A stretch of 64,000 nt of DNA from Suillus spraguei (Eukaryota; Basidiomycota; Agaricomycetes; Boletales; Suillaceae), in the NCBI GenBank assembly GCA_016800925.1, contig JABCPU010000275.1:1-64000 (forward strand), read 5' to 3'. Every line of letters begins with the position of its first letter. Within the stretch, counting starts at the first letter, position 1. Of the stretch, positions 6,250-53,079 are shown piece by piece. The notes under the pieces were generated by a model. That model was not told the origin of the DNA. It did no database searches and saw nothing but the letters and a program-made list of their open reading frames with translations. A program made the translations under genes and the position numbers.

Positions 6250-9200
6250 TTAAGGTCTTGCTGAAGACAAGCAGATCAGCGGGATTACTGCCAGGACATA
6301 ACAGCTAAACATACACAGGCGATGCTCTAGAATGATTTCAACGATTCTGCTGGCCAACTCGCCTTGAGAGTCACGAACAGATTGTTTTCCCTTCTCATGG
6401 AAGCGTCCAAATAGTAGTTTGGCTTTCCAAGTAAACGAGTTTCCTTGGCATGCGTGGACCGCTTTCCTCACAGCTTCCCTCACAGCAGCGGCATGCGGAG
6501 ACGCAATGTACCGCTCGAGAGCGACATTAAAAGAAGGAACAGACTTCTGGCTGTCCGGAAGATAGCGTCGCTTGTCGAAAATGTAGAAAGAGTGTTCAAA
6601 GATAATGGCAGCGGCTAAATGATCGATAATAAGCAGGTTCGTCGCAACGTAGCCTCGAAATTCACCAGAAATGAGTTGAACATCGGTCTCCGAGGGTGTT
6701 GAGCCAGAGACCTGGCACATTCGCAACATGAGAAATGTGTACAATTTGTGACTAATTAGACACACCACAGAGAGTAACCTAGACTGCGTGTCTGCGCACT
6801 GTTCCCGAGAAATCTGGTCAAACAATGATGGAAAATTGAAAATCGTCCACTCTGCTGAGGATCGATACACTCACTTTCTGCCAATGTGTAGCATCTTCAT
6901 TCAGCATGGCCCAAAGTCAAAGGAGGATAAAGAAACCAACCTCCTATTGATGGATCAGCGATATCGTTTGCAAGCAAGACTCTAAGATAAAAAAACTCAC
7001 ACACTGTTGAGGGACGTGCGATTTCAGTAGTAAGCAAAACTCAAACTCAACAGAAGATCAGCACACTAACATGCTGTGAGTAGATGAGCCATGGGATTGG
7101 GATTGGTGAGCAAGGCTGACGCTCGATTGGTGTGAAGAGACTCACCGACTGTCAATGGGAATCAGCAATGCCATTGGTCAGTGATACTCCAATTCGACTG
7201 CGGATCAATGTGCTTACACTCTGTGAATAGATGGGCAACGCGTCAGTCAGTATGATTCGAGTTCGACACTGGATGGGCCAACTCACAAGCTGTTAACAAA
7301 GCAGCAATGTTTTCGGTCAGTATAGACCATGGCGTCAGGGCGACGGAGAATCAATACACTCACACCCTGAAAGAAGATCAGGGAGCACATCAATGAGGAA
7401 GATAGGAAGTCGGCAGAAAATGATCACACTCACAAGCTGTCAAGAGATCAATGATTTGTTCTGTGAGTGGCTCAAGGTCGGTAGAAGATCAATGTACTGA
7501 CCTCCTGCCGAGAGATCGCCGATTGCTTGAGTCAGAAATTCTTACACTTAATAAATGATGGGCTCACTCACATCCTATCAACAAACGGGAGATGGCTTGA
7601 TTGAGAACGGCTCGAGCTCCAAGGAGGATTGACACACTCACAGCCTGCGAAGAGTGGGCAAGGACTTGGATCAGCATCGCTCGAGCTCGAAGGAGGATCG
7701 ACACACTCACAGCCTGCGAACAGTGGGCAAGGACTTGGATCAGCATCGCTCGAGCTCGAAGGAGGATCGACACACTCACATCCTGCGAAGAGTGGGCAAG
7801 GACTTGGATCAGCATCGCTCGAGCTCGAAGGAGGATCGACACACTCACAATCTGCAAAGAGTGGGCAAGGACTTGGATCAGCATCGCTCGAGCTCGAAGG
7901 AGGATCGACACACTCACAGCCTGCGAAGAGTGGGCAAGGACTTGGATCAGCATCGCTCGAGCTCGAAGGAGACACACTCCATCTGCAAAGAGTGGGCAAG
8001 GACTTGGATCAGCATCGCTCGAGCTCGAAGGAGGATCGACACACTCACATACTGCGAAGAGTGGCAAGGACTTGGATCAGCATCGCTCGAGCTCGAAGGA
8101 GGATCGACACACTCACATACTGCGAAGAGTGGGCAAGGACTTGGATCAGCATCGCTCGAGCTCGAAGGAGGATCGACACACTCACATCCTGCGAAGAGTG
8201 GGCAAGGACTTGGATCAGCATCGCTCGAGCTCAAGGAGGATCGACACACTCAACGAGTCAAATTACACATGCTCGACAAAGAACGACAACAATCTGCAAG
8301 AGTGGGCAAGGACTTGGATCAGCATCGCTCGAGCTCGAAGGAGGATCGACACACTCACAGCCTGCGAAGAGTGGGCAAGGACTTGGATCAGCATCGCTCG
8401 AGCTTGAAGGAGGATCGACACACTCACATCCTGCGAAGAGTGGGCAAGGACTTGGATCAGCATCGCTCGAGCTTGAAGGAGGATCGACACACTCACATCC
8501 TGCGAAGAGTGGGCAAGGACTTGGATCAGCATCGCTCGAGCTCGAAGGAGGATCGACACACTCACATACTGCGAAGAGTGGGCAAGGACTTGGATCAGCA
8601 TCGCTCGAGCTCGAAGGAGGATCGACACACTCACACGCTGCGAAGAGTGGGCAAGGACTTGGATCAGCATCGCTCGAGCTCGAAGGAGGATCGACACACT
8701 CACATACTGCGAAGAGTGGGCAAGGACTTGGATCAGCATCGCTCGAGCTCGAAGGAGGATCGACACACTCACACGCTGCGAAGAGTGGGCAAGGACTTGG
8801 ATCAGCATCGCTCGAGCTCGAAGGAGGATCGACACACTCACATACTGCGAAGAGTGGGCAAGGACTTGGATCAGCATCGCTCGAGCTCGAAGGAGGATCG
8901 ACACACTCACATCCTGCGAAGAGTGGGCAAGGACTTGGATCAGCATCGCTCGAGCTCGAAGGAGGATCGACACACTCACATACTGCGAAGAGTGGGCAAG
9001 GACTTGGATCAGCATAACTCCATGGGATTAATCAACATACCATCTGCAAGTAAACGCCCAAAACATAAATGAGAACGACCTTCAAAATTTCTGATAATCT
9101 TACAGAAATATGTGGAAACCAGATACTGCATCTGGCTATCAACGCCTCATGCAATCTCTCAGTTGTCTCAGCTGGTTGCAAGAGGTAACGCAGTATGCTA

Positions 9201-10279
9201 GACGATATCAGTCGTCAACGCTTGTGGCGAGGTAAATGAGACGATGGGTAGTTACTGCTCAACTGCATATTTCATGCAGAGCTCCAAGTTGATCTGCTGC
9301 GTTGAGACGAATAATCGCTGAAGCACGTCGCTATCCAGAGTTCCAGCTGTGCGTTCGATGAGTGGTCCACAATCTGCATCATCCTTGTCCATGTCTAATG
9401 GATCAATGGTCATTACCCATCGCAATTTGACTATCATTTAGCTTACTGGGAAGGCATACATGGCATTTTGGAGGCCACCGAACACCCTTGAGAAACTCCA
9501 ATTGCGGCCCATTAGCAAATGACTTCTCGGCGTGTGTCGGGGCCAGTGCTCGAGCGTCTTTTATTGATTTTCCCTTTGATTTTAGCTCTCCGTAGGCGAC
9601 GTCGTAGAAGGCATCGAACTTGGTAAATAATACTATCACAGGGACTGACGAGTGTGAGTTTGCGCATCAGTTGAACATCAACTATAGTCGCTTACTGCTT
9701 CCTGTGTCACACTGGGAGAAAAATTTGAATTCGCCTGCGGTGAAAGATCTGCTTGCTTCGTCCATCGGGATGCAATACCTGTGTTGAAATGTGAGATGGC
9801 ACACGTCGCGATTGATCAATTACAATTACCATATAGCATGGAGTTGGTTTTTTAGTTTGGTTTCCTTTGAACGGCGCACGATAAATTCCTTGACCTGGTC
9901 AAACTCGGATTCGCCGCCCGCCTCAAACCCACGTGAATCATGGAAGACGAATCCCGGGTTGCTTGGGAACACCAATTCATTCTCAATATTGTGCTCTCCA
10001 CGCTGAGAGTATGTCAATTCATGTCATCAACCAAGAGCACACCTCAATACCTCTCTGGATGGATCTAAAACTGCAGGGTCGACCTGATGTTAACGGGTTA
10101 GTAGTGATCACTGCCACCCTCTTACTAGCGCGCACCTTTTTTCCAGCGCAGTCATAGATTACTGGATTCTCCCGAGTATTGCAAACCCTCCGGAGAATGG
10201 TAGTCTTTCCCGCATTTGCTCTTCCTATAGTGAGGATTCGAAAGCGACCGATTTTCTCCTTTATCTCTGAAGGATCCAT
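6250..10279 (-). CDS. GTPase-domain protein with a chain of about 32 three-nucleotide exons
   Basis: The start ATG is at 10279. Large exons are 10136-10279, 10051-10083, 9830-10002, 9696-9778, 9447-9644, 9256-9394 and 9104-9197 (864 nt, 288 codons, ending in phase 0). They encode a fungal G-domain: P-loop GRANAGKT at residues 19-26, switch motif DSRG at 81-84 and TKFD at 152-155. The ending CSIWFPHIS fits the family's WFP segment. Next come 3-nt exons at 9041, 8980, 8911, 8842, 8773, 8704, 8635, 8566, 8497, 8428, 8359, 8291, 8186, 8117, 8049, 7918, 7849, 7780, 7711, 7642, 7572, 7502, 7434, 7364, 7287, 7218, 7146, 7071, 7001, 6941 and 6875 (leftmost base given). One further unit at 7980 has lost its donor. 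The introns are mostly 57-74 nt with GTGAGT-like donors. The terminal exon 6250-6813 continues in phase 0 for 187 codons. No triplet is a stop in this phase. The total is about 507 residues. GTP binding is inferred from motifs; the role is unknown. Confidence 0.72.
6875..7641 (-). repeat. eleven old, diverged intron-plus-triplet units
   Basis: Reading the plus strand, each unit shows a donor complement (ACTCAC, CTAAC, CTTAC, CCAAC or CTGAC), then exactly three bases, then CTG or CTA (acceptor complement). The triplets begin at 6875, 6941, 7001, 7071, 7146, 7218, 7287, 7364, 7434, 7502 and 7572. The introns between them are 63, 57, 67, 72, 69, 66, 74, 67, 65, 67 and 67 nt long. Intron bodies share little sequence, so these are the older part of the array, yet the exon length never changes. 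On the minus strand they would encode, in order, D E L G L S S H C E K. Confidence 0.75.
7642..9043 (-). repeat. young 69-nt tandem array (66-nt intron + 3-nt exon)
   Basis: About twenty nearly identical 69-nt units repeat from 7642 to about 9040. On the minus strand each unit reads as an intron starting GTGAGTGTGTCG, with a GCTGAT branch-like site and an acceptor TTCGCAG, followed by one triplet. The triplet is the main variable position: GCT, GAT, ATT, TAT or CGT (minus strand). Two units are irregular: 7971-7982, where a deletion removes the donor, and 8232-8293, where about 35 extra bases lengthen one intron to 102 nt. Because 69 is a multiple of three and the unit has few stops, long reading frames cross it on both strands; these are by-products. 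Confidence 0.8.
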
Positions 10280-12315: not shown

Positions 12316-14065
12316 ATCGCTTCGCACGAAAAGCCAGGCGAGGCCAGCATCGACCATGAGTTCATCTCACCGCAGAACGACAAGTTTGTTCTCCATGATA
12401 GCAAAGGCTTCGAACCAGGGGATGAAAACAACCTCGAAATAGTCCGAAATTTCATTGAACATCGGAGGAACATGCCTACTCCGGAACATCAGTTGCATGC
12501 TATTTGGTAAGGATTCTATCTGACCATTCCGTTATGTTGGACTGATCAAGTATCCGGAAGGCTTGGCTTTCAGATACCTCATGCAGGCGGACGTTTGTTA
12601 GAGACAGGAACGGAGAAATTCCTGAAATTGAAAAGTAGCGGAACGCTGGGAGACAGTAAGTGAATCAATAGCTACCTCTTCGTTATGTTAGAGCTTACGC
12701 TTGGTCAAAGTTCCCGTTGTTGTCGTTCTCACTAAATATGATATGCTCATCGACCGCATGGAACGAACTATAGACGAAACCTCTCTTAATATACTGAGCA
12801 ACGAAGCCATCAAGGAACTTGCGAAGACCAAAGCAGAAGCCGAGCTCCAGGATATCTGCATCGGACCTCTACAGAGATTTGCAGGGCCTGATATTCCCTA
12901 CGTCAAGATCTCTAGTATGTACCAATGTTCAGACGGGTTCATGCGTGCCTCTGAAGTGTAATATCGCAGCCTGTAAAGACCATAAGGAGACAATAACCCA
13001 CCTGATTCAAATAACTGAAAACTGCGTCGGTCTGCATTCTACGCCCGAGGCTGCGGTTATGACCTCCATCGCTCAGCGAGTGCATCCTGGACTCAAAATA
13101 AAGGCGTCAATCGAGTAAGCCTTGCTTGCTTCATTCTTGTTTCGTTATTCATGCAGCTTCAGGGTTGGCAAAAGAAGTCTGTCCCAGTTTCGCGTCAATA
13201 ATCACTGAATACAATCTAAATCTTCATGTCTTGCAGGATATTGGAAGGCGCTCGCATCAAGCACGATGTTCAAGAACCGCAAGACGTGGGATTGTCTATG
13301 TGCTTCACACTGACATCGTCAATGTGTGGAACTTCTATGATCCTCATCATGTAAGGATACCTTGTTTGTTGTCGCCGCATCCGTTCTAACGTGATTTGTG
13401 CACAGTACTTGCGCAGTCAAGAGTTCAGGGAAATGATAGTGAAAATGGTTGATAAGCTAGAAGTTGGACCTACGGCTAATCCCACCAAGACCATGTAGGC
13501 CGGTCTTTTACGCGACAGATAGATTTGCATCTCATCGGTTAATTACAGTACTATTGGGCTATCCATGGTAGGCACTATTGCGGGCATCGTGTCCGCCCTG
13601 GCAGGACCCGCCGCTCCCATCGTAGTACCGCTCGCAGCAGGTGCTGTACTTGCCGTATGGGTTCACGATGTATACCAGATATCGTACGCACCATTATTTT
13701 TTTCGTGAGCAAAAGGATGTCGACGCTTTTTCCTCAGCCATGCAGTGCTTCAGCGCTTCATGTCCTACATCGTCCACTTAACACTTGTCTTGCAGACACT
13801 TTATCTTGTGTCAGAAAGCCAGGAACTTACTCGTAGGGTTATCAAGCTCGCAGTCGCTTCCTATCTCGATTCCCCAATAAGCGGAGAAGTTGTTACTTGG
13901 ATTCAGGAGTATGACAAGCGGTTGACCATCCTGGAACGCGGGGATCGCGATGCCTTGGATGAAATCGTTGAGGTAATGCAATTTTATAGCATTGATGCGG
14001 CACAAATGTCCAAACATCGGGACGAAATTCCCCATGTGGGTTCGTTACCAGACGAAGCATGGTAA
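12316..14065 (+). CDS. fungal GTPase-like protein, 5' part not found
   Basis: The visible exon chain starts after an acceptor at 12315 (IASHEKPGEASIDHEFISPQ) and includes HDSKGFEPG (DxxG motif). Splicing 12506 to 12561 restores AIWLGFQIPHAGGRLLETG. The exon at 12711 reads PVVVVLTKYDMLIDR (TKYD base-recognition motif). Later exons give AQRVHPGLKIKASIE, YWKALASSTMFKNRKTW, HTDIVNVWNFYDPHH, YLRSQEFREMIVKMVDKLEV and a hydrophobic segment near 13555-13670 (GTIAGIVSALAGPAAPIV) that may be a membrane anchor. The last exon ends at 14065. No P-loop GxxxxGK[ST] was found in 12033-12315, so the gene is 5'-truncated, degenerate, or has an unrecognised first exon. It is a distinct paralogue of the minus-strand GTPase. 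Confidence 0.65.
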
Positions 14066-23620: not shown

Positions 23621-25252
23621 TGTCTTCTTAGATAGATGATCTATAGATAAAGACCTATAAAACCAAATATCTCCACGGTCAGTGATTCAGACAAATACCA
23701 ATGACTGATAACGTGGTTGTCGTGGGTGGCTGTTTATGTTCCCCAGGCACGTCAGCAAATGAGTCACTTCTATGAGATCAGCAAACTCTTGGACAATGAC
23801 AAAGATTCTTGAACAACTAAACTTCAAAAGAAAAACACAGAAGTCGAACAAACTTAGAAACAGAAGTAACTGGCTGAATTACTCTCTTCAACGGAATGCA
23901 GGTGTTTTGCAACAATTGTGCTACTGCAATTTGTGGGAAGTTACAACAATCACCTTCTCAGACAAGCAGGTAGGATCCCTGGTCAAGACTAGTCACTACT
24001 TCAGAGATCTTCTAGCTTACTATTGAACCTGCTGCCAAGGAACTCACTATGAGTATTAAGCAGTTAGCAGGAACGGACGTCCTTGGATTTCAATACCAAG
24101 TCCCCTTTCAATAACTAGAGTCTATCAGTCAGTGAAGACCTCAACTCAGTATCGCTACTCAGATGTGCAAGATAGAGTGTTGCTATCAACTTCTGAAGTC
24201 TCTCCTACTAAGCTACTCTGGCCTTAGATGGACTAAAGAGACAACACAAATATTAGAAACACAAGGACACTTAGCACCAACAAACTTTGAAAAAGAGAGA
24301 GAGACCAGTAATCAAAGCAAAAGAAGAAAAAGAAAGATTCAGAAACAGAAGCAAGGAACAAGACAACAGAGAGAAAGAGAAGAAGAGAAGAAGAGAAAGA
24401 AACAGAGAAGAGAAAACAGAGAGGAAGATGATGAAAGAAACTAGAATGAATTTGTCAAAGAAAAAAAGATTTGTTGTCTTGCTGGTTGTCAGACACAGTG
24501 AGCTCAGGGTCTTGCTAGTTGTTGAGCACAGTGAGCTCAAGGTAGTGCTATCTCACAGAGTAGACTTCCAATCTTACTGTTGTTGACAATGTTCTTGACA
24601 GTGTGCTGATAGTGCTGCTCACACTTCACTCTCAGTTATATTTCTGAGGGGGAGAAAATCTCTTTTTTTATTGACAAAAAGGTGGGTCTTATATAGACAA
24701 AATGAATGGCTATGCTACTGTTTTCCCACATTTTTGTAGGGGTGCTGACCTACCCTATTTATTGAATATTGTCATAGTTGATTTGTAATATGCTCAAGGG
24801 TGTGAGAAGAAGTCATGTGGGATATCAATGGCTATGCATAAATTTGAGATCAGGTGACTATTAGTGGCTATCCTAGGAGGAATATCAATTATGTAATATT
24901 TGAAGCATAAATCTGCACTTTTTTGTAGATGTATAGAAATGACGCGAGTGAATCATAATGTGTTTCATGAGTTTCTCTGCAGGGTAACTCTATGTAATTA
25001 TTTTGCTGGGGTCACCTGACATCTGTGGGAATATTATGAAGTAGTTTCTGTAGCCAAACATACATAAACACACCCATGAAAAAATGAATTAGAAATAATA
25101 AGCAAACTTTTACGAGCAAAAAGAAACTTTCGATTCTGTGTCATGGATTGATTTCTGAATAGAGGAACACTAAGCTATTATAGTCCTGGTACTATTTTTC
25201 AGCTGCAGTAGTGCTTAGTCAGCCATGCACCAGACCAGTTTGGTGCGTGTCA
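23621..25252 (-). repeat. Gypsy 3' LTR (copy b)
   Basis: On the minus strand it runs TGACACGCACC to AAGACA. It is a direct repeat of 36869-38471 with scattered single-base changes and small indels, so it is the left LTR of the element. A polypurine tract next to it (25253 onward, minus strand) is not obvious. Lysine-rich reading frames inside are compositional. Confidence 0.85.
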
Positions 25253-27108: not shown

Positions 27109-27486
27109 CTAGTCTAGTGGGAATGTTACCCAGGATTGTATCTCCGCTTTTTCGATCTCTTTGAGACGTGCTTCTATGTTCTGGGCCTGTCGCTCTAAGG
27201 TAGCACAGACCGAGCAAGTCCAATTAGGCTGGTTAGGGAGTGTATTCTGTTCTTCTGTATTCAGAGGATCTGTTAGGTATGCATTTCCAGGTTCCAAGAG
27301 AATGTTCTGGTCAATTCCTGGAGTATGTTTGTCTAGTACATGTCCTACCCAGTTGGCAGTAATGTGGAGTAGGTTATTACGAGCTTGCCGTCGCCGAATC
27401 TTAAACTGTTGTGGGGAATCACTAGTTTCACTATTCGGGGTCTCCATAGGGATCTGATACAAGGTTTTCTTCTTCAGCTTCTTCAA
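27109..27486 (-). CDS. accessory ORF 1 of Gypsy element, CxxC + coiled coil
   Basis: This frame of 125 codons overlaps the end of the integrase frame by about 56 nt. It begins with a basic stretch (MKKLKKKTLYQ) and has FKIRRRQARNNLLHITANWV in the middle. The CxxC pair WTCSVCATLERQ is followed by a helical segment NIEARLKEIEKAEIQSW and the end VTFPLD. Its C-terminal third resembles that of the frame at 25360-25776. No known domain was recognised. Confidence 0.45.
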   Translation of the reverse strand: MKKLKKKTLYQIPMETPNSETSDSPQQFKIRRRQARNNLLHITANWVGHVLDKHTPGIDQNILLEPGNAYLTDPLNTEEQNTLPNQPNWTCSVCATLERQAQNIEARLKEIEKAEIQSWVTFPLD

Positions 27487-30400
27487 TTCCCTGGGAAAGT
27501 GCTTGAAATTGCTGGGAGTTTCTGGTTATATAGGGCAGGAGTCTGAAGGCCGCTATTCCGCGTCGGGATATTGTACCATCCATTTCACTCAATACATATG
27601 ACCCTCCCTGAGTTCTCCGCTCCACTATATATGGGCCAAGATAGCGGGGCTTGGTCTTTCGATTTAGTTCTTTCTCTATTCGGGTATTTCGTACTAGAAC
27701 TAAATCACCTGAATGGTATACTTCTTGCCTTAATCGTTTAGCATATCTTTTCTCAAATTGTTCTTTGGATTTACACCGAGCCATTTTCAATGCTTCTGCT
27801 GCTTGCTCCAAATCTTCAGGGCGTCTTTCCAGCTGGCGTATTCGTAGTGCTAACAGATCTGCTGAGGTCATTTCACTCATGAAACCATCTACCATGAATG
27901 TTGCTTCTGCCAAGTCAAATGGCAATACGGGATGTACTCCATGAATTAGGAAGAATGCTGAGAATCCTGTTACCCGACTAGTGGTAACTCGGTCTGCAAA
28001 TAAGGTTTGAGGGATCTTCTGAGGCCATTGCGTAAGATTATCACCACATGATTTGACTAGTGCTTCTCGCAATGTGAAATGTCCTCTTTCAACTACTCCA
28101 TTAGCCTGGGAATTATAGGGCGAGATTGTGACATGTGGGATGTTTACTTTGTCCATAAGTGCCGAAAATGCACCTTGTACTTCTGGCCCATTATCAGTGG
28201 TTACCTGCCCTATGGCTCCATATCTGCAATATAGATCTTCCCAAAAAAACTTGCTGAGAGTCTTGGCAGTGGGTGCTCTTAAGGCTCGTCCTTCTACGTA
28301 GCGGGACAGGTCATCTCTCGCTAACACAATATACTTGAATCCTTGAGCCGGGGCATATGCATGATATCAATGTAGATTTTCACAAAGATTGTGGAGGGAG
28401 TGGAGATTGTGATAGGAATATGCATTTTAGTGGTACTCCGGATTTGGCAGGGGTGACATGACTGTACATGATGTCGTACATCTGCAAACAAGTATGGCCA
28501 GAAAAATCGGAGCCGAACTGTTTCCCATGTGGCTGCCTCACCCCTGTGTCCAAGCTCTTCATGTGCCTGATTGAGAATTGTCGCACGCTTCTCCGGATCA
28601 AATATTACCAAAAGTGGTGGTCTATCCTGCATCTTTTTATACATTCTTCCGTTCTGCACAAAGAACTTGACAGCCTTCTTCAGAAATCTCTTCTTTGCTG
28701 AGATGGTTTCGAATAAGGGTGTTTCTAGAGTGGTTAGGAACTTGAACATGTCCCTTAGATTCTTTTCCTGATGTCCTGTTCCAATGAATACTGCCTGAGA
28801 AGATACCTTCCTTCCTGGTGCCAAGACCATGGTATTAAGACAAGCCTGGGATGTACTACCATATAAGGCTAATTCATCTAACCATGTATCATCTTGAGGA
28901 TCAATACTTTCTCCTTCTCCTAAACCTCTTCTGGACAATGCGTCAGGTCCCTTGAATTTAGTGGCAGGTACGTGAATGAGTGTGAAATCGAAGAGCAGGA
29001 TTCCTTGGATCCACCGGTTAATAGCTGCATTTGGCTGAAGATCAGGCTCATTTAACATCCCTTTGATATATTTGGCATCTACTTCCACATGGAGAACTTT
29101 CACACCAATGATGTAAAGGCGGAAATGACGGAGTGCTCGGTAAAGTCCATACAGTTCTAACTTCGGTTGCGAATATCGGGATTCCACCTCATTGAAGGGT
29201 AATGACCCATATCTTGCAGGTCGCTTACGTCCTTGTTCATCCTCTTGAATAAGATAATCCCAGCTGCATATAGCTTGAGTCCACTGATAAGGTAACTGGG
29301 CGATCTGAGGTATAGTCAATTGATCTGAGAGCTGGTGCTGAAGCAACTAGCTTTTTTAATGTTTCAAAAGCTTCTTTCCTTCTTTCATCCCAGACAAATT
29401 CAATGTCTTCCTCCACAACTCACTCAGGGGTCTGGCTAGTGTGGAGTATCCTGGAATCCATATGCGAACAGTGCACATAATCCTAGAAATGCTCTAGCTT
29501 CCTTTGGAGTTTTTAGATCAGGCCAATTAAGGATCTTGTCTACCTTTGTTTTATCAGGGATCCTCCCTTCAGGGGTACATGTTTGTCCAACAATCAGTAC
29601 TTGAGGAAGGCATAGCTGAATTTTGAGGGCTGAGAATGTGGCACCGGCCTCCTTGATACGATGCATAATTCGTTGAACATCTAGAGCATGAAGCCAAATA
29701 AATTTGCGAATGCCTGGATTCTCAGGCAGGACTTCAGGTTGACCATGCTCATCAGGAAATATGCTTGTAGGTCTTTGATAGGGAGGTCATCTATGAAGAT
29801 GTTGGCTTTTTTCAGGAATTTCTTCTTTGAGCACAAAAGTCATACAGTTCTGAAATTCAGCAGGAGAGTTGGTGAATCCAGTGGGGAGTGAAGTGATACG
29901 AAGCAGTCCCAGGGGTGTCAAGAATGCAGTAAGATCTCTGCTTTGTGGGTGCAATTTCCTGGCATCAATCCCAAAATAAATCGAACACAGTGTAACACTG
30001 GGCTCCTGCAAATGGCTCCACAAAATCATCAAGAATAGGAGGTAGACCTGCATCATGAATAGTGACCTTGTTGAGTGGCTGAAGGTCATGAACTATCCTC
30101 AGCTTTCCATTCTTCTTGACTACACAGAACCATCGTGATCGGTATGCGGATTGACTTGGTTCATAAACTCCTGCCTCTATCTTTAATTTCAATACTCTAT
30201 GACCTTGCTTCGTATTCCTGGAGGAATTGGAATGTTCTTATATTCCCATGGGATATGTGGGATGGTAGGAATAATGTATGGGGAAAAGTATGATTCCTTC
30301 AGAGTACCCCTATCTGTATCTTCAAAAGCTAATGCATCCTGGTGTAACCACATAATGTGTCGAAATAGTTTCTCCTCTTCTGGTCGTAAGAATCCTGTGG

Positions 30401-30845
30401 AATTGATCTTGAGAGCTTCCAATCGTTCTGCAGTGAGTTTCTTGGTGGGAATCACTTCTGGAGGATTTGGAGATAGGGGTATAAGGGTGGCTAAGGGGTC
30501 AGTCGGGATTTGCCGAACTACTTGAGCTTCTTGGGGGAACACTCCAGGAACAGGCCGTACCTTCTTATCTACTCGTTTATACATGGTAAGTGAGCTAGCA
30601 TCACCTGGGCGGTCCAGATCATTGTCCAAATCATCGTCAGGGATCCAAAATAGCCCATCACTCTCTTGGTCTTCTAGGGTCATTGTCCATATGGAGTCTC
30701 CAGGCTCGAAGTGTTCTGTGATACTCCCAATCCATATGGTTACCTCTTCCTCCTTATTTTGTCCTCCTGATTCACAATTTATAGGGGTATCACTGGCTCG
30801 CACATATAATCCAGAACTCGTAGTCTCCTTTGCCATTTGCTGCAT
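27431..30845 (-). pseudogene. Gypsy pol: RT, RNase H, integrase; several frame breaks
   Basis: From 30845 the frame gives VRPVPGVFPQEAQVV and PHIPWEYKNIPIPPGIRSKV, then breaks near 30190. RT continues with GVYEPSQSAYRSRWFCVVKK and FAGAQCYTVFDLFW, breaks near 29970, resumes with FLTPLGLLRITSLPTGFTNS and breaks near 29790 before the active site FIDDLP. RNase H/connection sequence starts before 29346 (RPARYGSLPFNEVESRYSQP). Integrase has an HHCC finger (HEELGH ... CHPCQ), a first catalytic D in YIDIMHMP, a frame break near 28340, then TTDNGPEV and NSQANGVVERGH, with the final E about 35 residues after the second D. A chromodomain-like end is not clear. As written, the enzyme cannot be made as one polypeptide. 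Confidence 0.85.
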
Positions 30846-31684
30846 TCTTGTGGAGTTCAGTTCCTCGGACCGGGTATAGGCTGTTGGGTTGGCAATGTAT
30901 TATATAGGTCTACCCTGATTCTTTCTCACACAACTAGACTAGAATGAATGTCGTAATACTCCGTAATAATCTTGGGTCTTGTGGACTACTACCGCTGATC
31001 TTAGTTTGGTTTCTGCTTAGGTATATGTATTTCACCAGTAAATTTATACTAGTTTATGTATACTACCCTAAGGCTGGCAGGCAAGGTGGTTCGTGTTTTG
31101 CTTGACAGGTTTGTGAACTATCTAAGCTTTCGAGCTTCTTTGGCTGAAGGATAGGCTTTGTTGAATTAGATGAACATGTGGCATAGGATAATTCATAGGG
31201 TCTAGTTGTTCAACCAATAGGTTCATAACTTATAGAGTTCTTAAGGCTTTTTAACACTCTTGTTTTGCTTAAGACTTATGTTTTGTTTCATGTGTTAGCT
31301 GCGCGAAGCTTTTGACTAAAAAAAAGGGGGGTGTGTTCGCGTGATTCTTGATGCTAAATCGGTCGAGATTCTTAAGGGTCCAATTGTATACAGCCAAAAA
31401 TAGACTCATCGCACAAACTTTCGACGACAAGTAGTTATACATTTCGTACACATACGTAGTAGGTACCATAGGCACAGGAACAGACAGTAGACAGCATCAG
31501 ACATATGTCAGTAAGTACAAGCAGACAGGCGGATACAAACAGTCACATGGACAAGCAGGCGACAGGAACAAGCAGACCCGCTATAGTAGAATGTAACAAA
31601 AAAAAAGCATAAGCACACGACAATACAAATATACTAGTACATAAACACTACTGCTGTCCAAAGACTCGAGATGCTCTCCAGTAT
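30846..31684. other. Gypsy spacer between protease and pol frames
   Basis: This AT-rich stretch lies inside the element with no supported frame. A purine run of A and G near 31317-31331 followed by TGTG looks like a polypurine-tract/LTR junction on the plus strand and might mark a nested, decayed element. Confidence 0.3.
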
Positions 31685-34600
31685 CTATTCTAAGAAGTAA
31701 GGGCCGTTGCGTTCAAAACGAGGAGAGGAACGCTCGTACTTGGACTCTGTTACTGACAAGACATGGTTCATGCTTGTGGAAGCTTCCACGCCCGTCCCGT
31801 GAAGATCGTCGAGTAAGTAGTGCTGGAGTAAGGTGTGAACGACGTCCTCGTCAGGGAGGAAGCTTTGGAGTAAGTCGTCAATAGAGTCTGCGAGAGTGAA
31901 ATGCCCAAAGAACCTAAAAAATCCTGCAGCTGTGCGCAAAAACGCGACCTCCTCGAGAGTGAAGAGTGGGTTAGCAGAGGGCATAGCTGCATGAAGAAAG
32001 TAGCGCGAGTGACGGTTGCTGGGATGCAGCACACACCATCCACAATGATGAGGATCATCTGATCCTGCATGCTCTCCTGGGACTGTACTGGAGTAAGGGT
32101 GCCATGGGTGAGCTGAAGGATGGTGCGTGCGGCGGAGCGCATAGTCTTGAGTTCCTCGATGCGACGGTAGAGGCGGCTCCTGCCTCGTGGGACGTGTGCC
32201 TCGTAAGTCGAGGTGTCGTAGTGATAGATGCAGCTAGGGCGGGTAGTGTAAAACGCCGCGTGCTCAAGCCCGAGCTCGCGGACGGCATGAGACGCCATGA
32301 TACCGGTTAGGAATTTGCAGAGGGAGGTAAGACGCTGGGAGGAGATAGGGTCGTAGTGGCCGTGGAAGGGGAGACGCTGGTAGGTCTGGTCGCTGTAAGA
32401 GAGGCCGAATGGGACAGGCGCGAGTCGGTCGAAGATGTCGTTGTCTGGGTCGGGCTCCTCAAGCGCCTCAGCATCTTGAGTAAAGGTAAGGGAAGAGACG
32501 AGCTGGGGAATATATTTACGCGACCACGGGTCAGAGATATCCTCTGCGAGCTTCTTGATGTGCATGAGGGTGGCACGAGGAGCAAGCTTGGTGGATACGG
32601 GCTGCGCAGAGGGCAGGAAGACGGCGTCCTCCTCTTCGTCGGCACAGGACGAGGAAGAGTTACTGCAGTCAAGGAACAAGTCGTCGTCCGAGAGTTCCTC
32701 CTCTGGACCGTTGAGCTCGACTTTGTGTGCCCAAACGCAGCGGCGCTTTTATTGAGGGCAACGAGCCATGTCTTGACAACAAGGGCTTGGTGGAAGAGCG
32801 TGGCTTCAGAGGCGACCTTCGCCTCTGAAGCCTTGGGCGTCCTGGGCGGCGTAGGTAGAGACACTGTAGTAGATACCTCCTTCCTCTTCATACTCTCTTC
32901 TACACCCATACTCTCTTTTACTTCTCTCTCCAGGGACCGGCGGGATGCTGTCTCGTCCTTGAAGTCCTTAAGGTCGTCGGGGGTAAGAGGCAATATCTTG
33001 GGCGCAAGGGCACTTGATGGATCTGCGGCCGGAAATGAAGCGCCGTTCCCGAGGGTGTTTGCTCCCGGGAACTCTAAGATGTCGGCAGGCGCCATGTGGG
33101 CGAGGCCGTTGAAGTCGATAGTGGGTAGGAGGGTAGAGCCAAGGCCCATAGAGCGCTTGACTGCTGCGTCGTAGGCTTTGAAGAACGGGCCAGGCGTGAG
33201 TCGCTTGGCGAAGGCAAGGGGAGTAGGTGATTGAATTTGTCTTGCGTCGATCGGAAGCTCGAAGGCAGGTATAAGTACGTTGCCGCTTTGAGATATTACA
33301 TCTTGAGCGGCGAAATTTGCATGTACTACTATATTTGGAACGTAATCTACGATGTGCCTGGCTTCGTTCCTAATTTTAGAAAACTGCGAGGCGTTCAATG
33401 CTAAGTAATCAGCCTCGTGATTTCCATTAATGGAATGTGTAAACTGCACGTTGGCCGTGTGCCGAAAGGAGTGATGCCCGGGGTGGACCATCGGTTGCTT
33501 AGCGTTAGATCCGGCGTACTCGATCATAGCTGGATTGGGCTGGAAGAGTGTAATAGAACGGATGGGAGACATGATGGGCCGAGTTCTGGTAGGTCCCTTG
33601 AATATTGTAGTTTCTTTTATAGCTCTTGTAACTACACTTTCCTTTAACGTTTTTATTAACTGTAAGGCCTCTATTGCTTCAATGCTACCTATAGTTCTGC
33701 GTGATATGTCTACCAATTTCCTCTGTGGGTTGTACTTGCGCAGCTGAGATTCTCCGTCAGTATCTGATGCTTCTATTACCCCCGTAATGAGGTAAGTACT
33801 ATTTTTAGAATTCATTTGGTGTGCTGCGCTGTTGCCGGCGATACCCGCACATGTAATACTCCAGCCTTTCGCACCGTTGTCCCGCTTCTTTCCGTATTTG
33901 GAAGGAACCACTAACACTTCGGATATATCGTCGTTAGTAGGACTATTTCCGAATTCGAGCCATGTGCCTGTAGGGCGCTCGTGTATAGATACTGTATTGT
34001 GAGTTTGCCAAGGCCTTCCCAATAAAATATCAAATGGGACCGAGTCCCCTACATATATGTCGGCTACTGTAAGTACTGAGCCTATTTTTACGGGTACCTG
34101 AGAAACCAGACCCTTAAGATGTCCTGTACCGCCATTTGCATCATGTAGTACTAAAGTTTTACTCCTATTGATCGGGAGCTTAATGAATTTCTCATACATG
34201 TGCTCTGATACTATATTTAGCTGACTGCTGGTATCAATTACCGCTTTAAGACTGTTCCCGTGAATTTTGATTGGTAATTCTATTAACGCACCTTTTGATG
34301 GTGATTCGGAACTTCCCATCACGTTAAATCCTTCCGCTGTATTCTCACTCCCTTCGTTCGGGTCAAATACTAGGTGAGTTTCCTTTCTTGTCATTGTTTT
34401 GGGTCTGATCGACTCGGCCAACAGCCCTGACAACTCCTTAGATACGCCCAAGATCTCTCCCGCAGTAAGTTCTACAGGTACGTTTAGTATTCGGCTTAGT
34501 ACTAATTTAGCATTGATTCCATCAGCTAATTCTGATCTTCGGATACCCGATCGAGTATCGATCGTTTGATCCGCCTGCTTCTGAGGCATTTCCCTCCCCT

Positions 34601-36056
34601 TCGGTATGTCCTTTTGATTCTTCTTGTCCTGCCTTCGTCCCTGCTCCCTGACCTTTACTTTTTCCATAGGTTCGTCTTCCATGACGATGTCGTCGTCCTG
34701 TCCATCATACCGCGCCTGCTCATCAGCAGGTTGTATGGTTGACGCATTGTCTCGCGCCTTTCCCTTTTTCGGTTCGTCCCTTCTTTCTTTTCCTTCTCGC
34801 GTCTTACCTTCTTGTTCTGGAGCTCTCATTGCTCCTAGAGGTATGTTCCATTGTTCTTCCCTGGGGTTTCCCTGGGGTATACTTACTGATTCAGACTTTT
34901 TCTTAGGTTCTACTACTTTAACTTCTCGTGCCTCGGGCACTGGTGCTTTCGACTGCGCCGGCTTCTCGACCGTCAGACCCTCTACTGGTTTTGCAGGGTG
35001 CTGTCTGCCCACAGGTCCGTACATCCTATCTCCTCTTAATTCGTAACGCTGACGCTGTTCTTTCTTTAGTTCTTCTCTCACGTCTCGCCCTTTCGAAGGG
35101 TAGACTCCATCAAACACTTCGTTTCTCCTTCGCGTTCCTTCCTTCGGAGTCCTATAGACTGGGTAAGTCTTTACTTCTTCTTCACTTTCTTCATTACTCA
35201 TGTATCCTAATGCCCAACAGTTTTCACGCTCTTCCTCCTCTTCACTCGCATTCTCTACCTCCGCCCATGTAATAAAGTGAGTGGATGCTGATTCCTTCCA
35301 GTTTTCGTATGCTGTCGCTAATGATTCTGTCCCCCATCGCCTTAGGGGTGCTCCGTTTGGCAACATGATCCTTCCATTATCCGACTTCCTCAAGGCTCCT
35401 TCTGTAAGTAGTTTCCCTATCACTGGACATCCTACTAACCCATGCCCTATCTCTCCACAGCCAAAGCATGCAGATGAGTTAGTGGGGTAGTTAGTAGAGT
35501 AGCTAGTATTAGGATTAGTATTTCGGTTGTTAGCACTTTGGTACCTATTATTAGCACTACTCCCAATGTTATTCACTCCAAAACCATTGTTCCTTGGTGT
35601 GAATCTGGCACTAGGAAATCTAGAATCTCGTATTCCCATTTCTTGTTCTCTCTTCTTTCTTTCTAATGGGCTTTCAATGATATCCTTTACTGCTGGATCA
35701 AGAGTGATTGCTTTGTAGTACAGGGTGCTATAATTAGCATCACCTATCCTCATCCTTCCAAGTTGCTGAATTAGATTCTCAACTTCCTCATGGGAAGTTG
35801 ACTTGGCACGTTGCCTTTGCACTGCTTTGCGAGTTTTGACAATAGGAGTTTCATCTTCCTCAGAGCTGGAATCTTCAAAGCGAGTCTTACGGACGATGGG
35901 CTTGCTCACAGATGAGTGCTTTTTGTGCTTTGCTCTCTTTGAAGATTTCGCTTTCTTCCAGTGCTCCTCCTCTGAGTCTGTACTTGATTCTGATTCTGAG
36001 TCAGTGTCACTATTTGAATTTTCACTATCTGAATCTTCAGTATCTGAGTATACCAA
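31685..36056 (-). pseudogene. Gypsy zinc-knuckle and protease frame with long C-terminal extension
   Basis: The frame from 36056 starts with a Ser/Asp/Glu-rich region (DSDSENSNSDTDSESESS). It has a CCHC knuckle CFGCGEIGHGLVGC and then a long charged linker. An aspartic protease-like segment reads LKAVIDTSSQLNIVSEHMYE, with DTS at the active site, followed by FDILLGRPWQ. About 400 residues later, near 32750, the frame turns into unlikely sequence while a second frame (NGPEEELSDDDLFLD onward) reads well down to about 32000. A third frame finishes at 31685 ([20 protein letters not shown]). At least two breaks are therefore present, or the extension is reached by frameshifting. The roughly 700-residue extension beyond protease was not recognised. 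Confidence 0.7.
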
Positions 36057-36868: not shown

Positions 36869-38471
36869 TGTCTTCTTAGATAGATGATCTATAGATAAAG
36901 ACCTATAAAACCAAATATCTCCACGGTCAGTGATTCAGACAAATACCAATGACTGATAACGTGGTTGTACGTGGGTGGCTGTTTATGTTCCCCAGGCTAC
37001 GGTCAGCAAATGAGTCACTTCTGTGAGATCAGCAAACTCTTGGACAATGACAAAGATTCTCGAAACAACTAAACTTCAAAGAAAAACACAGAAGTCAAAC
37101 AAACTAAGAAACAAAGTAACTGGCCAAATTACTCTCTCCAATGGAATGCAGGTGTTTTGCAACAATTGTGCTACTGCAATTTGTGGGAAGTTACAACAAT
37201 CACCTTCTCAGACAAGCAGGTAGGATCCCTGGTCAAGACTAGTCACTACTTCAGAGATCTTCTAGCTTACTATTGAACCTGCTGCCAAGGAACTCACTAT
37301 GAGTATTAAGCAGATAACAGGAATGGACGTCCTTGGATTTCAATACCAAGTCCCCTTTCAATAACTAGAGTCTATCAGTCAGTGAAGACCTTAACTCAGT
37401 ATCGCTACTCAGATGTGCGAGATCAAGTGTCACTGTCAACCTCTAAAGTCTCTCCCACTAAGCTACTCTGGCCTTAGATGGACTAAAGAGACAACACAAA
37501 TATTAGAAACACAAGGACACTTAGCACCAACAAACTTTGAAAAAGAGAGAGAGACCAGTGATCCAAGAAAAAGAAGAAAAGAGAAAGATTCAAAAAAAAC
37601 AGAAGCAAGGAAACAGACAACAGAGAAAGAAAAACAGAGAGGAAGATGATGAAAGAAACTAGAATGAATTTGTCAAAGAAAAAAAATTTGTTGTCTTGCT
37701 GGTTGTCAGACACAGTGAGCTCAGGGTCTTGCTAGTTGTTGAGCACAGTGAGCTCAAGGTAGTGCTATCTCACAGAGTAGACTTCCAATCTTACTGTTGT
37801 TGACAATGTTCTTGACAGTGTGCTGATAGTGCTGGTCACACTTCACTCTCAGTTATATTTCTGAGGGGGAGAAAATCTCTCTTTTTTATTGACAAAAAGG
37901 TGGGTCTTATATAGACAAAATGAATGGCTATGCTACTGTTTTCCCACATTTTTGTAGGGGTGCTGACCTACCCTATTTATTGAATATTGTCATAGTTGAT
38001 TTGTAATATGCTCAAGGGTGTGAGAAGAAGTCATGTGGGATATCAATGGCTATGCATAAATTTGAGATCAGGTGACTATTAGTGGCTATCCTAGGAGGAA
38101 TATCAATTATGTAATATTTGAAGCATAAATCTGCACTTTTTTGTAGATGTATAGAAATGACGCGAGTGAATCATAATGTGTTTCATGAGTTTCTCTGCAG
38201 GGTAACTCTATGTAATTATTTTGCTGGGGTCACCTGACATCTGTGGGAATATTATGAAGTAGTTTCTGTAGCCAAACATACATAAACACACCCATGAAAA
38301 AAATGAATTAGAAATAATAAGCAAACTTTTACGAGCAAAAAGAAACTTTCGATTCTGTGTCATGGATTGATTTCTGAATAGAGGAACACTAAGCTATTAT
38401 AGTCCTGGTACTATTTTTCAGCTGCAGTAGTGCTTAGTCAGCCATGCACCAGACCAGTTTGGTGCGTGTCA
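36869..38471 (-). repeat. Gypsy 5' LTR (copy c)
   Basis: On the minus strand it runs TGACACGCACC to AAGACA (TG...CA) and is 1603 nt. It is adjacent to the primer binding site and Gag. It is a direct repeat of copy b and an inverted repeat of copy a. Confidence 0.88.
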
Positions 38472-50123: not shown

Positions 50124-53079
50124 ATGCTTCAGCTTTCCACAAGCGCCATGCCCGTTCGAGAGTTCAAATATCATACAAAAGCCATACGCGCTGTAGCAGT
50201 TTTCCCTGATGGCCGACGTATGGTGACGGGTTCATTTGACAAGACGCTTTGTTTGTGGGACTTGAGGACAGGTGCTATGTTGAAGAAGATGGAGGGGCAT
50301 CACGATAGGGTGACGACATTGGTGGTATCACGAGATGGGCAGTTGATAGCAAGTGGTGATCAGAAAGGAGTATTCATCATTTGGCACGGGGAAACCGGCA
50401 AACCTCTTACTCAATCTACCAAAGCTCACTCTAATCGGATCTACACATTGGACTTTTCTCCCGATGGAACAGTACTAGCCAGTGGTTCAGAAGACAATAC
50501 AACCAAGCTATGGTGCACGACAACATGGGAGCTACAAGGAAACCCGATTGAGCGTAGAAATTGCGTCCGTTGCGTTCAGTACTCGCCATCCGGCGAGTTT
50601 CTTGCGATTGCAACATACGCCAATATCCAAATTTATAATTCAAACACGAGAGAATGCGTCGCAGACTTCAAAGGCCAGATTCCTTACAACTTTTCACTCA
50701 CGTGGACACCCGATGGCACACGCCTTCTCACAGCAGGACATAAAAATGATCCGACCATACGGGAATGGGATACAATGACCTGGAAGCAGGTTGGTGACCC
50801 CTGGATGGGTCACACTTCAGATATCTCTTCCATTGCTGTTCATCCGGCGGGCATACTCGTCGCTTCTGCATCTTATGACAATCATATTCGTCTCTGGCGA
50901 CTCTCAGATCGACGAACCATCGCCGTCTTCCAGCACTCAAGCTGGGTAGGATGTGTCACTTTCTCCGTGGATGGCAAGCATATTCTCAGCGGAGGTTCCG
51001 ACAGGATGATCTCAGGGTGGGCAGTACCCAAGAGTGCTTGGCCTGATTCAAAGGTATTTTACTGTTAATTATCCGCCCCTTCGCCATATCATAGCGTATC
51101 TTTGAATGGAAAGGCTCGAGTCATTGCAAACCGCAATATGGTCATCTCAGGAAAATCACTGTGGGAGGATGTGCTTCTCGACGCGCAAAAGGTATGATGA
51201 CATCTATTCGGAGCTTCCTGCCCAATGCTCACTTTGACCACATATAGGTAATCGAATTGAACCCTTTGTCGCATGTTGGATACCGGTTGAAGTATGCAGC
51301 GCTTCATGGCGCAAAACGCTACGATGAAGCTGTTGAGGCCTTCAGACTGATGCTCACCAAATTAGACAATGCTCATGATATGCAAATACGAAGTAAGCTC
51401 TAGTAAGTATCACACTGTCTTGACGCTCAACTCCTTCAGAGCTGCGCGAACAGTATGCCAGTCCCTCCGAAGCAGATAGCATCATTGAAAAGGTCATAAA
51501 TGTTCAGCTTGACACCGCCCCGCTTCGCCTGCTTGAAACCGCCACCGGGCGTCTATGTGATCGAGAAGTACAAATAAGCACTTTCAAGACGACCACAGAG
51601 TACAAGCAGCTCCTGTTATCGATTATGAAGCATGCAGACCTTCCAAGGGAGATCGTCGCAGATGTAGTGGCGACATACTTTGGTTGCGTCATGCTATCAC
51701 ATAGATGGGAAGGAAAGGAGCCGCTGTTGCACGACATCAAGGGCAAGGTCGTGTATCAGTTGGAGGCAGCCGGTGGTCTCACGAAGTTGCAGTTATTCTG
51801 CAAAAAAGTTCACCAGGCAGGGTTTCACTGGGCGTGGGTTGATTCATGTTGCATCGACCAAAACAACCATGTCGAGCTCCAAAAATCACTCAACTCTATG
51901 TTTGCGTGGTATCGCAATTCAGCGCTCACAATCGTCTACCTATCGGATGTTCCGCCTTCATCCAAGTCTGGCGCACTGACAAAGAGTGCTTGGAACACCC
52001 GAGGATGGACCGTTCCAGAATTCTTAGCTCCTAAAGTCATTCTCTTCTACCAACAGGATTGGACTCTATATCTCGATAATGACTCTTACAACCACAAGGA
52101 GTCTGTCGAGATCATGCATGAGTTGGAGGACGCGACGGGTGTAGATGCACATACCCTCGTTACCTTCCAACCGGGGATGAGAGACGCCCGAGAAAAACTC
52201 AAGTGGGCGTCTACGCGTGTCACTACCGTGGCGGAAGACATTGCGTACTCACTGTTTGGTATCTTCGGCATCCAGCTACCTATCCTTTATGGCGAGAATA
52301 AGGAAAATGCCCTTGGGCGGCTCCTACAGGAGATAGTGGCTCGATCGGGCGACATTACAGCTCTTGACTGGGTCGGACAGCCATCTACGTTCAACAGTTG
52401 TCTTCCAGCCAGCATTTCATCATACGCAGCTCCTCCATGTACCCTACCGTTTTCCGAAGATCAGATCCAGACAGCCGTCTCTTCGCTGCATCATACTATG
52501 GCTATAGAGCTGGCTTCAAATGTTTATGACCGGCTTGACAATATGAGCGCTGCTCGCTTCGCAAACTGCAGACTGCATCTACCTTGCATAGTGCACCGCG
52601 TTACAGAAGTCAGACGGAGGCAGGATCTAGCCCAGGAAACTCATTTCACGTACGGAGTAAAGGCAGATGGACTCCATGACCTATCGATCACCACCGAAGA
52701 GACGCTGATTCAATTCACATGGGCAAGGCCCACTCCACAGTCATTTTTGCTTGTCCGTCCATGGGACCGTCGTCTTCTCGAGCTGCCTGACTTTGCAGAG
52801 CCTGCCTTCGATGACGACGCGGTTGATTTGCCTGATCCTGGGACTCCGTTAGATCACTCGCGCTATTCTGCCAAGCGGGAACAGATTGATTCGGAGCGTC
52901 GCTCACGAGCATTGCGATTGATTGTGCGCCTTGGACAACCATTTGGTGCATTTTTGCTCGCGCAGCAACGTGGCGGAGAGTACAAGAGGATCGCGTCAGA
53001 TCGTGATATCATTGCCCAAGTCAAAGACGCTACTTCTGTTCACAATATGATGGACATTAGGATCCTCGAAATATTGTAG
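50124..53079 (+). CDS. WD40-TPR-HET fusion protein
   Basis: Exons are 50124-51053, 51114-51191, 51248-51392 and 51440-53079; all joins keep the frame. Exon 1 encodes about seven WD40 repeats (MVTGSFDKTLCLWDLRTG, VLASGSEDNTTKLWCTTTW, LVASASYDNHIRLWRLSD, ILSGGSDRMISGWAVP). Exons 2-3 encode a TPR-like helical pair (VIELNPLSHVGYRLKYAALH, GAKRYDEAVEAFRLML). Exon 4 encodes a HET-type domain with the order seen in mushroom relatives: FGCVMLSHRWEGKEPLL, GFHWAWVDSCCIDQNN, GWTVPEFLAPKVILFYQQD and STRVTTVAEDIAYSLFGIFG. HET domains act in heterokaryon incompatibility and self/non-self responses in fungi; the role here is inferred. The gene appears intact, about 930 residues. Confidence 0.88.

Follow-up and report, generated by a model that had tools for sequence, protein, structure and literature searches.

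The closest described counterpart of the system considered here comes from truffles. NACHT-ANK genes of Tuber melanosporum contain tens or dozens of exons of only 3 base pairs (bp) (Iotti et al. 2012, as described in PMC4986451, PMC10197012, PMC3689799 and PMC9815663). In this review of one stretch of DNA, we describe a comparable arrangement in the mushroom Suillus spraguei. The window analysed is the whole 64,000-nucleotide (nt) stretch at positions 1 to 64,000 of contig JABCPU010000275.1 (assembly GCA_016800925.1), and carries on its minus strand (10279–6250) a GTPase gene in which seven ordinary exons are followed by 31 three-base exons, each probably translated as a single codon, and then by four terminal exons. 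As in Tuber, whose 3-bp exons according to the citing papers diversify a C-terminal recognition region, many 3-bp exons occur in an expanded fungal family. A preliminary description of the window, made from the letters alone, had taken such a run to be undescribed; the truffle genes supply the precedent.

The two systems nevertheless differ. Tuber is an ascomycete, its host proteins are of NACHT-ANK type and its diversity is ascribed to alternative splicing, whereas Suillus is a basidiomycete, the host is a G-domain protein and the diversity can be read from the DNA itself in comparisons of paralogs and of alleles (Tuber being compared here by the descriptions given in the citing papers). Among the titles and abstract openings listed by searches of open-access literature, none reported codon-sized exon arrays for Suillus, basidiomycetes or GTPases; microexons as such receive mention in two basidiomycete papers (PMC1184071, PMC4014442). 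New relative to the truffle case are the phylum, the protein and hypervariability at the level of the DNA.

Other systems share single aspects of this arrangement. The WD, ANK and TPR repeats of fungal NOD-like receptors (NLRs) such as HET-E and HNWD are presented in PMC4986451 as units homogenised by exchange in which a few hypervariable positions are under selection; there the conserved part of the unit is protein, whereas in the Suillus array conservation falls on the intron and the variable position takes up the entire exon. Schistosoma micro-exon genes (MEGs) are summarised as having many tiny exons per gene, of 3–81 bp, with introns of up to 5 kbp (PMC10526429). MEG exons and introns vary in size, whereas the Suillus exons are uniformly 3 nt long and the introns mostly 66 nt, with no introns in the kilobase range seen in the arrays. 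The bicycle genes of gall aphids, which are insect effectors, are rich in microexons but are not known to have uniform codon-sized ones. They are introduced in PMC9168663 as a fast-evolving family. Fusarium CYP621A is outlined as containing a one-nucleotide exon, indicating that the fungal spliceosome can join an exon of fewer than 4 nt (PMC12940212). That is a single tiny exon, whereas Suillus has long runs. Introner-like elements insert into many unrelated genes. In fungi they are characterised as multiplied spliceosomal introns (PMC4457414). The Suillus array intron has at least 547 copies (40 of 69 candidates scored, best scores first), and those among the matches listed lie in the arrays of one family, on seven contigs that each carry this GTPase family.

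Architecture of the gene and its array

Exons 1–7 (10279–9104), which end in phase 0 at 9104 as the preliminary description had proposed, yield a stop-free spliced translation, a G-domain protein that matches its relatives and ends WFPHIS. Downstream, the strict pattern YAG-NNN-GT picks out 31 triplets, from 9043 to 6877 (last base 6875), all in phase 0 and translating as MYDYRYRYDDAIDYYAIDAADELGLSSHCEK; these are the only matches to the pattern on the minus strand between 9300 and 6700. The chain, previously put at about 32 units, is real, with 31 units by the strict pattern and one more, near 7982, that has lost its donor, and no triplet in it is a stop. When the minus strand of the window was block-shuffled 40 times, a procedure that destroys repeat structure, the longest chain obtained was 3, against pieces of 12, 3 and 16 on the real strand. 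The proximal 20 units mostly form a 69-bp tandem repeat (94–97% matches) and, being mostly copies, are not independent of one another; in the 11 distal units, YAG-NNN-GT is kept in every case despite divergence. The array introns are mostly 66 nt long, with two long ones of 102 and 128 nt.

The terminal part begins at 6813, again in phase 0 as proposed. The preliminary description saw here a single exon open for 187 codons, and whilst the stretch is indeed open, this is misleading: relatives imply four exons (6813–6766, 6711–6666, 6614–6315 and 6260–6250). The first three are separated by two stop-free introns whose residues most relatives lack, which is why the four-exon structure is preferred, although one model (P0130) retains one of the two introns. 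The relatives P0023, P0034 and P0118 have HRLTRP or HRLPRP as their C-terminal end. The parts of the gene are as follows:

10136–10279, minus strand: exon 1, with the P-loop of the G domain (GRANAGKT); spliced translation and relatives
10051–10083, minus strand: exon 2, 33 nt, encoding VDPAVLDPSRE; spliced translation, also in P0001
9830–10002, minus strand: exon 3; spliced translation
9696–9778, minus strand: exon 4; spliced translation
9447–9644, minus strand: exon 5; spliced translation
9256–9394, minus strand: exon 6; spliced translation
9104–9197, minus strand: exon 7, ending ...WFPHIS in phase 0; spliced translation
7642–9043, minus strand: proximal array, 20 putative single-codon exons (MYDYRYRYDDAIDYYAIDAA) with hypervariable triplets; pattern, mostly near-identical 69-bp units
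6875–7574, minus strand: distal array, 11 putative single-codon exons (DELGLSSHCEK) with diverged introns and ELG codons conserved between loci; pattern and locus comparison
6766–6813, minus strand: terminal exon a (ISREQCADTQSRLLSV); relatives and spliced translation
6666–6711, minus strand: terminal exon b; spliced translation, boundaries by homology
6315–6614, minus strand: terminal exon c (AAIIFEHSFYIFDKRRYL...); relatives and spliced translation
6250–6260, minus strand: terminal exon d, HRLSRP then TAA; spliced translation, relatives ending HRLPRP or HRLTRP

The protein is of the MMR_HSR1 GTPase type, as indicated by the P-loop in exon 1 and by a match to MMR_HSR1 (PF01926) in the relative P0123 (23.7 bits, cut-off 21.9). 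The Pfam scan took in three relatives, P0123, P0121 (partial) and P0034; the match in P0034 fell just under the cut-off and P0121 gave none. MMR_HSR1 was the sole Pfam match in these three, with no WD, ANK or TPR match among them; judged by these relatives, the host is not an NLR of the NACHT-ANK kind. The family is a large one: with the G-domain half (276 residues) as query, 1527 proteins were found at E ≤0.001, and among the best 120 of these only Suillus species are named.

Evidence bearing on translation of the triplets

The window gene (locus C453) is not alone. In the 86-Mb assembly, paired YAGNNNGTGAGT units were matched 395 times and the reversed control pattern 3 times, and six or more units in a chain were found in 19 of 23 S. 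spraguei loci (16 of 20 regions, both of two added loci and the window). Later counts of triplets, donors and introns refer to these 19. As in Tuber, 3-bp exons come in tens, here consecutive and in phase 0, with 31 in the window, as many as 87 in C392, 45 in C432a, 34 in C158b, 31 in C432b and, two-base units included, 48 each in C922 and C1100.

Ahead of the donor GTGAGT, the exon is 3 nt long in 429 of 469 cases but in none of 60 antisense cases, and the 548 triplets include no stop where position-wise base frequencies predict 7.8, although units within an array are related and neither count consists of independent trials. The strongest coding test uses the 10 of the 19 arrays that are homogeneous, each comprising five or more 69-bp units that are nearly identical: differing unit pairs number 0 synonymous against 2181 nonsynonymous, so that a distinct codon always means a distinct residue. 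The synonymous fraction among single-base neighbours of the 548 triplets is 22%. A minimum-change count, which assumes equal rates, places 54 of 148 changes in the exon codons, that is, in 3 of 69 positions. In the 15 arrays with enough 69-bp units, mean within-array diversity is 0.32–0.69 for triplets and 0.00–0.21 for introns; taken with the purely nonsynonymous differences, this is the combination of near-identical units and few diversifying positions known from the NLR repeats.

The distal array behaves differently. Its E and L codons are identical in six of six representative loci and its G codon in five of six, with intron cores 75–76% alike, and the units flanking these ELG codons are no more alike than the introns. 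EL[GS] is present in 13 of the 19 loci and ELG in 12.

The introns themselves carry splicing signals. Among 95 mutually dissimilar array introns (51–74 nt, being drawn from spacings of ≤80 only), 50 begin with the donor GTGAGT and 58 have CTRAY 14–50 nt upstream of the acceptor; shuffling gave 15.4 on average and 26 at most.

Further evidence comes from proteins that read across the place of the array. A search with residues 265–400 of the predicted spliced protein returned 11 proteins among 707 candidates, and one with P0123 returned five among 1948, P0123 itself included. P0123 is a 543-amino acid frame that starts with M, ends HRLPRP and lies on a contig of 1848 nt, where thirty 66-nt introns would not find room; it reads FPHIW-ARYYYDDVRDLDVLDLLRDLDVLLLLKREK-LDRSDCEKMQSRLFSV across the place of the array. 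By manual alignment, P0122 has 37 residues at this place, P0124 eight, P0131 21 and P0121 24. P0121 carries DELGI, with eight residues between its DELG and the terminal exon, the placement expected from the two sister loci C392 and C158b; when its segment was shuffled, the motif fell at that place in 3 of 200000 trials and anywhere in 37 of 200000. P0122 and P0124 are identical at 199 of 210 positions after the array yet differ in their array-place residues (37 versus 8), and may be paralogs, alleles or isoforms. Leading runs of residues that NNT codons can encode, matching the codon style of the arrays, extend over 26 residues in P0123, 33 in P0122 and 22 in P0016; P0121, P0131 and P0124 show no such run. 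A further candidate, 'LG.S.CEK' in P0122 and P0128 as a homologue of the distal array codons, was dropped and is not used as evidence because in C432b the array ends REE and the terminal exon is LSHSHCADMQSR, which suggests that the terminal exon's first residues are its true counterpart.

In other species, some gene models run on into the array intron. Eight tails were checked for the translated intron, which is matched over 13–22 residues in P0020, P0036 and P0116, over seven residues only in P0011, P0012 and P0061, and not at all in P0016 and P0113. The S. subluteus and S. cothurnatus models (P0020, P0036) contain the translated unit over 22 residues, and the unit must therefore exist in at least these two species as well; for S. 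placidus and S. weaverae (P0011, P0012) the match is the seven-residue one.

Competing readings and the exchange of units

Exact 3-nt exons in phase 0, the lack of stops, donor, branch-point-like and acceptor motifs, selection at the level of residues and the read-through relatives form the sequence basis on which we would read 9043–6875 as some 31 real, translated one-codon exons of an S. spraguei GTPase gene, together forming a hypervariable segment, with a probability of roughly 0.85. That the single-codon exons themselves are real seems more secure still, and we would be surprised to see it overturned. Splicing as single codons, which had been an inference in the preliminary description, thus gains support from donor spacing, exclusively nonsynonymous differences, conserved distal codons and the read-through proteins. 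Mechanistically, such short introns would be recognised by intron definition, making exon length nearly irrelevant, and skipping any unit would preserve the frame. The proximal array would then supply a hypervariable peptide whose residues diversify, as the nonsynonymous differences in ten arrays suggest, whilst exchange within and between loci would hold the introns alike and the distal ELG part would be kept constant.

Several observations weigh against this. Four of the 20 regions (C292a, C301, C361, C481) lack a chain of six units and were for that reason left out of the later counts. Before GTGAGT there are eight two-base units, which would break the frame (C522 3, C333 2, C1100 3), and with any donor 11 in six loci (C522 4, C333 2, C922 1, C1100 4); many of these, not all, can be explained by loss of a base from a short run. 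C136, C326, C339 and C567 contain units whose exon is 1 nt long or whose acceptor is broken, and these arrays may be decaying. No residues of the array remain in the gene models P0034 and P0118, and two or three are left in P0023 and P0126. After DELG the window has seven residues and C751a six, so that the spacing in P0121 fits only some loci. The short contigs behind P0121–P0124 and P0131 are taken to be RNA from their length and source, and the array-place segments of these proteins are presumed to be split into single codons in their genomes. The allele-like pair C922/C1100, chosen to show faster change in triplets, gave no clear excess (2 of 137 triplet sites against 10 of 3062 intron sites differ, 122 gapped columns being set aside). 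Finally, codon order in the four arrays tested showed no excess of repeated triples or identical neighbours, i.e. no trace of block duplication, the exception being lag 2 in C392 (P 0.02).

How the units spread is a separate question. In C392 (L051), an 8-bp duplication at the end of the intron precedes 14 of 14 CGT codons and 2 of 72 others, a tagged cassette at many places that points to exchange of units. One 66-nt intron is unchanged in C453, C522, C392, C333, C922 and C1100, and with an identical intron on six contigs the exchange probably runs between loci too. A 1901-base flank is 100% identical (rounded) between C453 and C522, and no other match among those listed covers it in full; over the 3′ part of the gene the two are 98.7% identical. 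They are taken as alleles on these grounds, with 31 units in C453 against 27 in C522 (four of them two-base) and different codons.

One possible account, which we would sooner doubt than adopt, is codon shuffling at the DNA level: one-codon cassettes flanked by introns would be exchanged and, together with free skipping, would reprogramme a nonself-recognition GTPase, the system having an origin separate from that of the truffles. The shared intron would provide the homology for exchanging single cassettes within and between loci, and the frame would survive since each cassette is one codon in phase 0. An alternative origin, which we consider unlikely, is that a peptide once encoded without interruption had introner-like copies of an intron inserted between its codons, instead of units of codon plus intron multiplying and diverging. 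It would account for C432b (L053), where the residues after the first M are R, E, D and F only and thirty units use just AGA, GAA, GAC and TTT, codons 2–3 bases apart (≤3 base differences) beside identical introns (three variants in 29 units), as well as for the one unchanged intron on six contigs and, lag 2 in C392 apart, for the unremarkable codon order of the four arrays. It sits poorly with introns that are all in phase 0 and spaced exactly 3 nt, with array lengths that differ within an allele-like pair, with the tagged cassette of C392 and with the confinement, among the matches listed, of the intron copies to seven contigs that all have this family.

The alternatives that deny translated single codons altogether, or deny selection on them, fare worse. 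An inert tandem repeat within one large intron (9104 to 6813), its splice-like motifs copied along, would suit the satellite-like 69-bp repeat of the proximal units and those models (P0034, P0118) that join FPHI directly or nearly so to the terminal exon; we reject it as very improbable given residue-level selection, conserved distal codons, the splice motifs that 95 introns carry despite their mutual dissimilarity, and transcript-like proteins in which 8 to 37 residues occupy this place. A mutation process directed at the triplets, with no selection on protein, would explain why triplet diversity in C432b is 134 times intron diversity; with third bases invariant (diversity 0) in six of the ten homogeneous arrays and not one synonymous codon pair, it is rejected as equally improbable.

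More improbable again is an array translated unspliced as a 23-residue repeat (x-VSVSILLRARAMLIQVLAHSSQ) in which a single residue varies. In its favour, the 66-nt intron contains no in-frame stop, and the models P0020 and P0036 run into the unit. Of 497 introns (≤97 nt), 241 would preserve an open frame if retained, as would 29 of 30 in C432b, so that frame alone excludes a translated repeat at most loci and not at C432b. Only 335 of the 497 are multiples of three, however, and many contain stops, whilst P0121, P0122 and P0123 lack the repeat; with 162 of 497 introns not a multiple of three, the unit is no translated WD, ANK or TPR motif either. An assembly or sequencing artefact, suggested by single-base length changes that resemble long-read errors, has next to no probability when the structure recurs at 19 loci, which lie on different contigs or at different places, and the unit is translated in gene models of other species, for 22 residues in S. 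subluteus and S. cothurnatus and for just seven in S. placidus and S. weaverae.

Neighbouring features and a possible role

Elsewhere in the window, a second, diverged G-domain stretch (44% identity) lies on the opposite strand (12325–12510, plus strand), where no codon array reaches three units; G-domain-like neighbours are also found near the paralogs on C432, C888, C158, C751 and C292. At 51625–53079 (plus strand), there is an open frame with a heterokaryon incompatibility (HET) domain (PF06985, E 1.5e-11), directly downstream of a WD40-repeat frame (50124–51068, plus strand); genes of both types are tied to fungal nonself recognition. Retroelement-like frames occupy 27431–36056 (minus strand), with matches to an integrase core, a gag-type protease and DUF4100 that are all under the curated cut-offs, and an identical 33-bp tandem repeat occurs at 24476–24550 and 37693–37767, 13 kb apart.

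By analogy with the fungal NLR repeats, as these are presented in PMC4986451, the array segment could be a variable recognition or interaction region between the G domain and the C-terminal domain, a suggestion to which we give slightly less than an even chance. It is prompted by the size of the family, the diversification of the segment by residue, the differences between alleles and the presence of HET and WD40 frames in the window.

Gene models miss or truncate the array genes, leaving a large family of an ectomycorrhizal genus misannotated at its most variable part. If the reading as translated one-codon exons is true, two fungal phyla have evolved codon-sized exon arrays, in different protein families. 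Up to 87 consecutive three-base exons would put splicing by intron definition to a strong test, and each codon, accompanied by its own 66-base intron, would come with a built-in control for selection. The genes would also constitute a candidate nonself-recognition family in mushrooms, whose role a comparison of strains could address.

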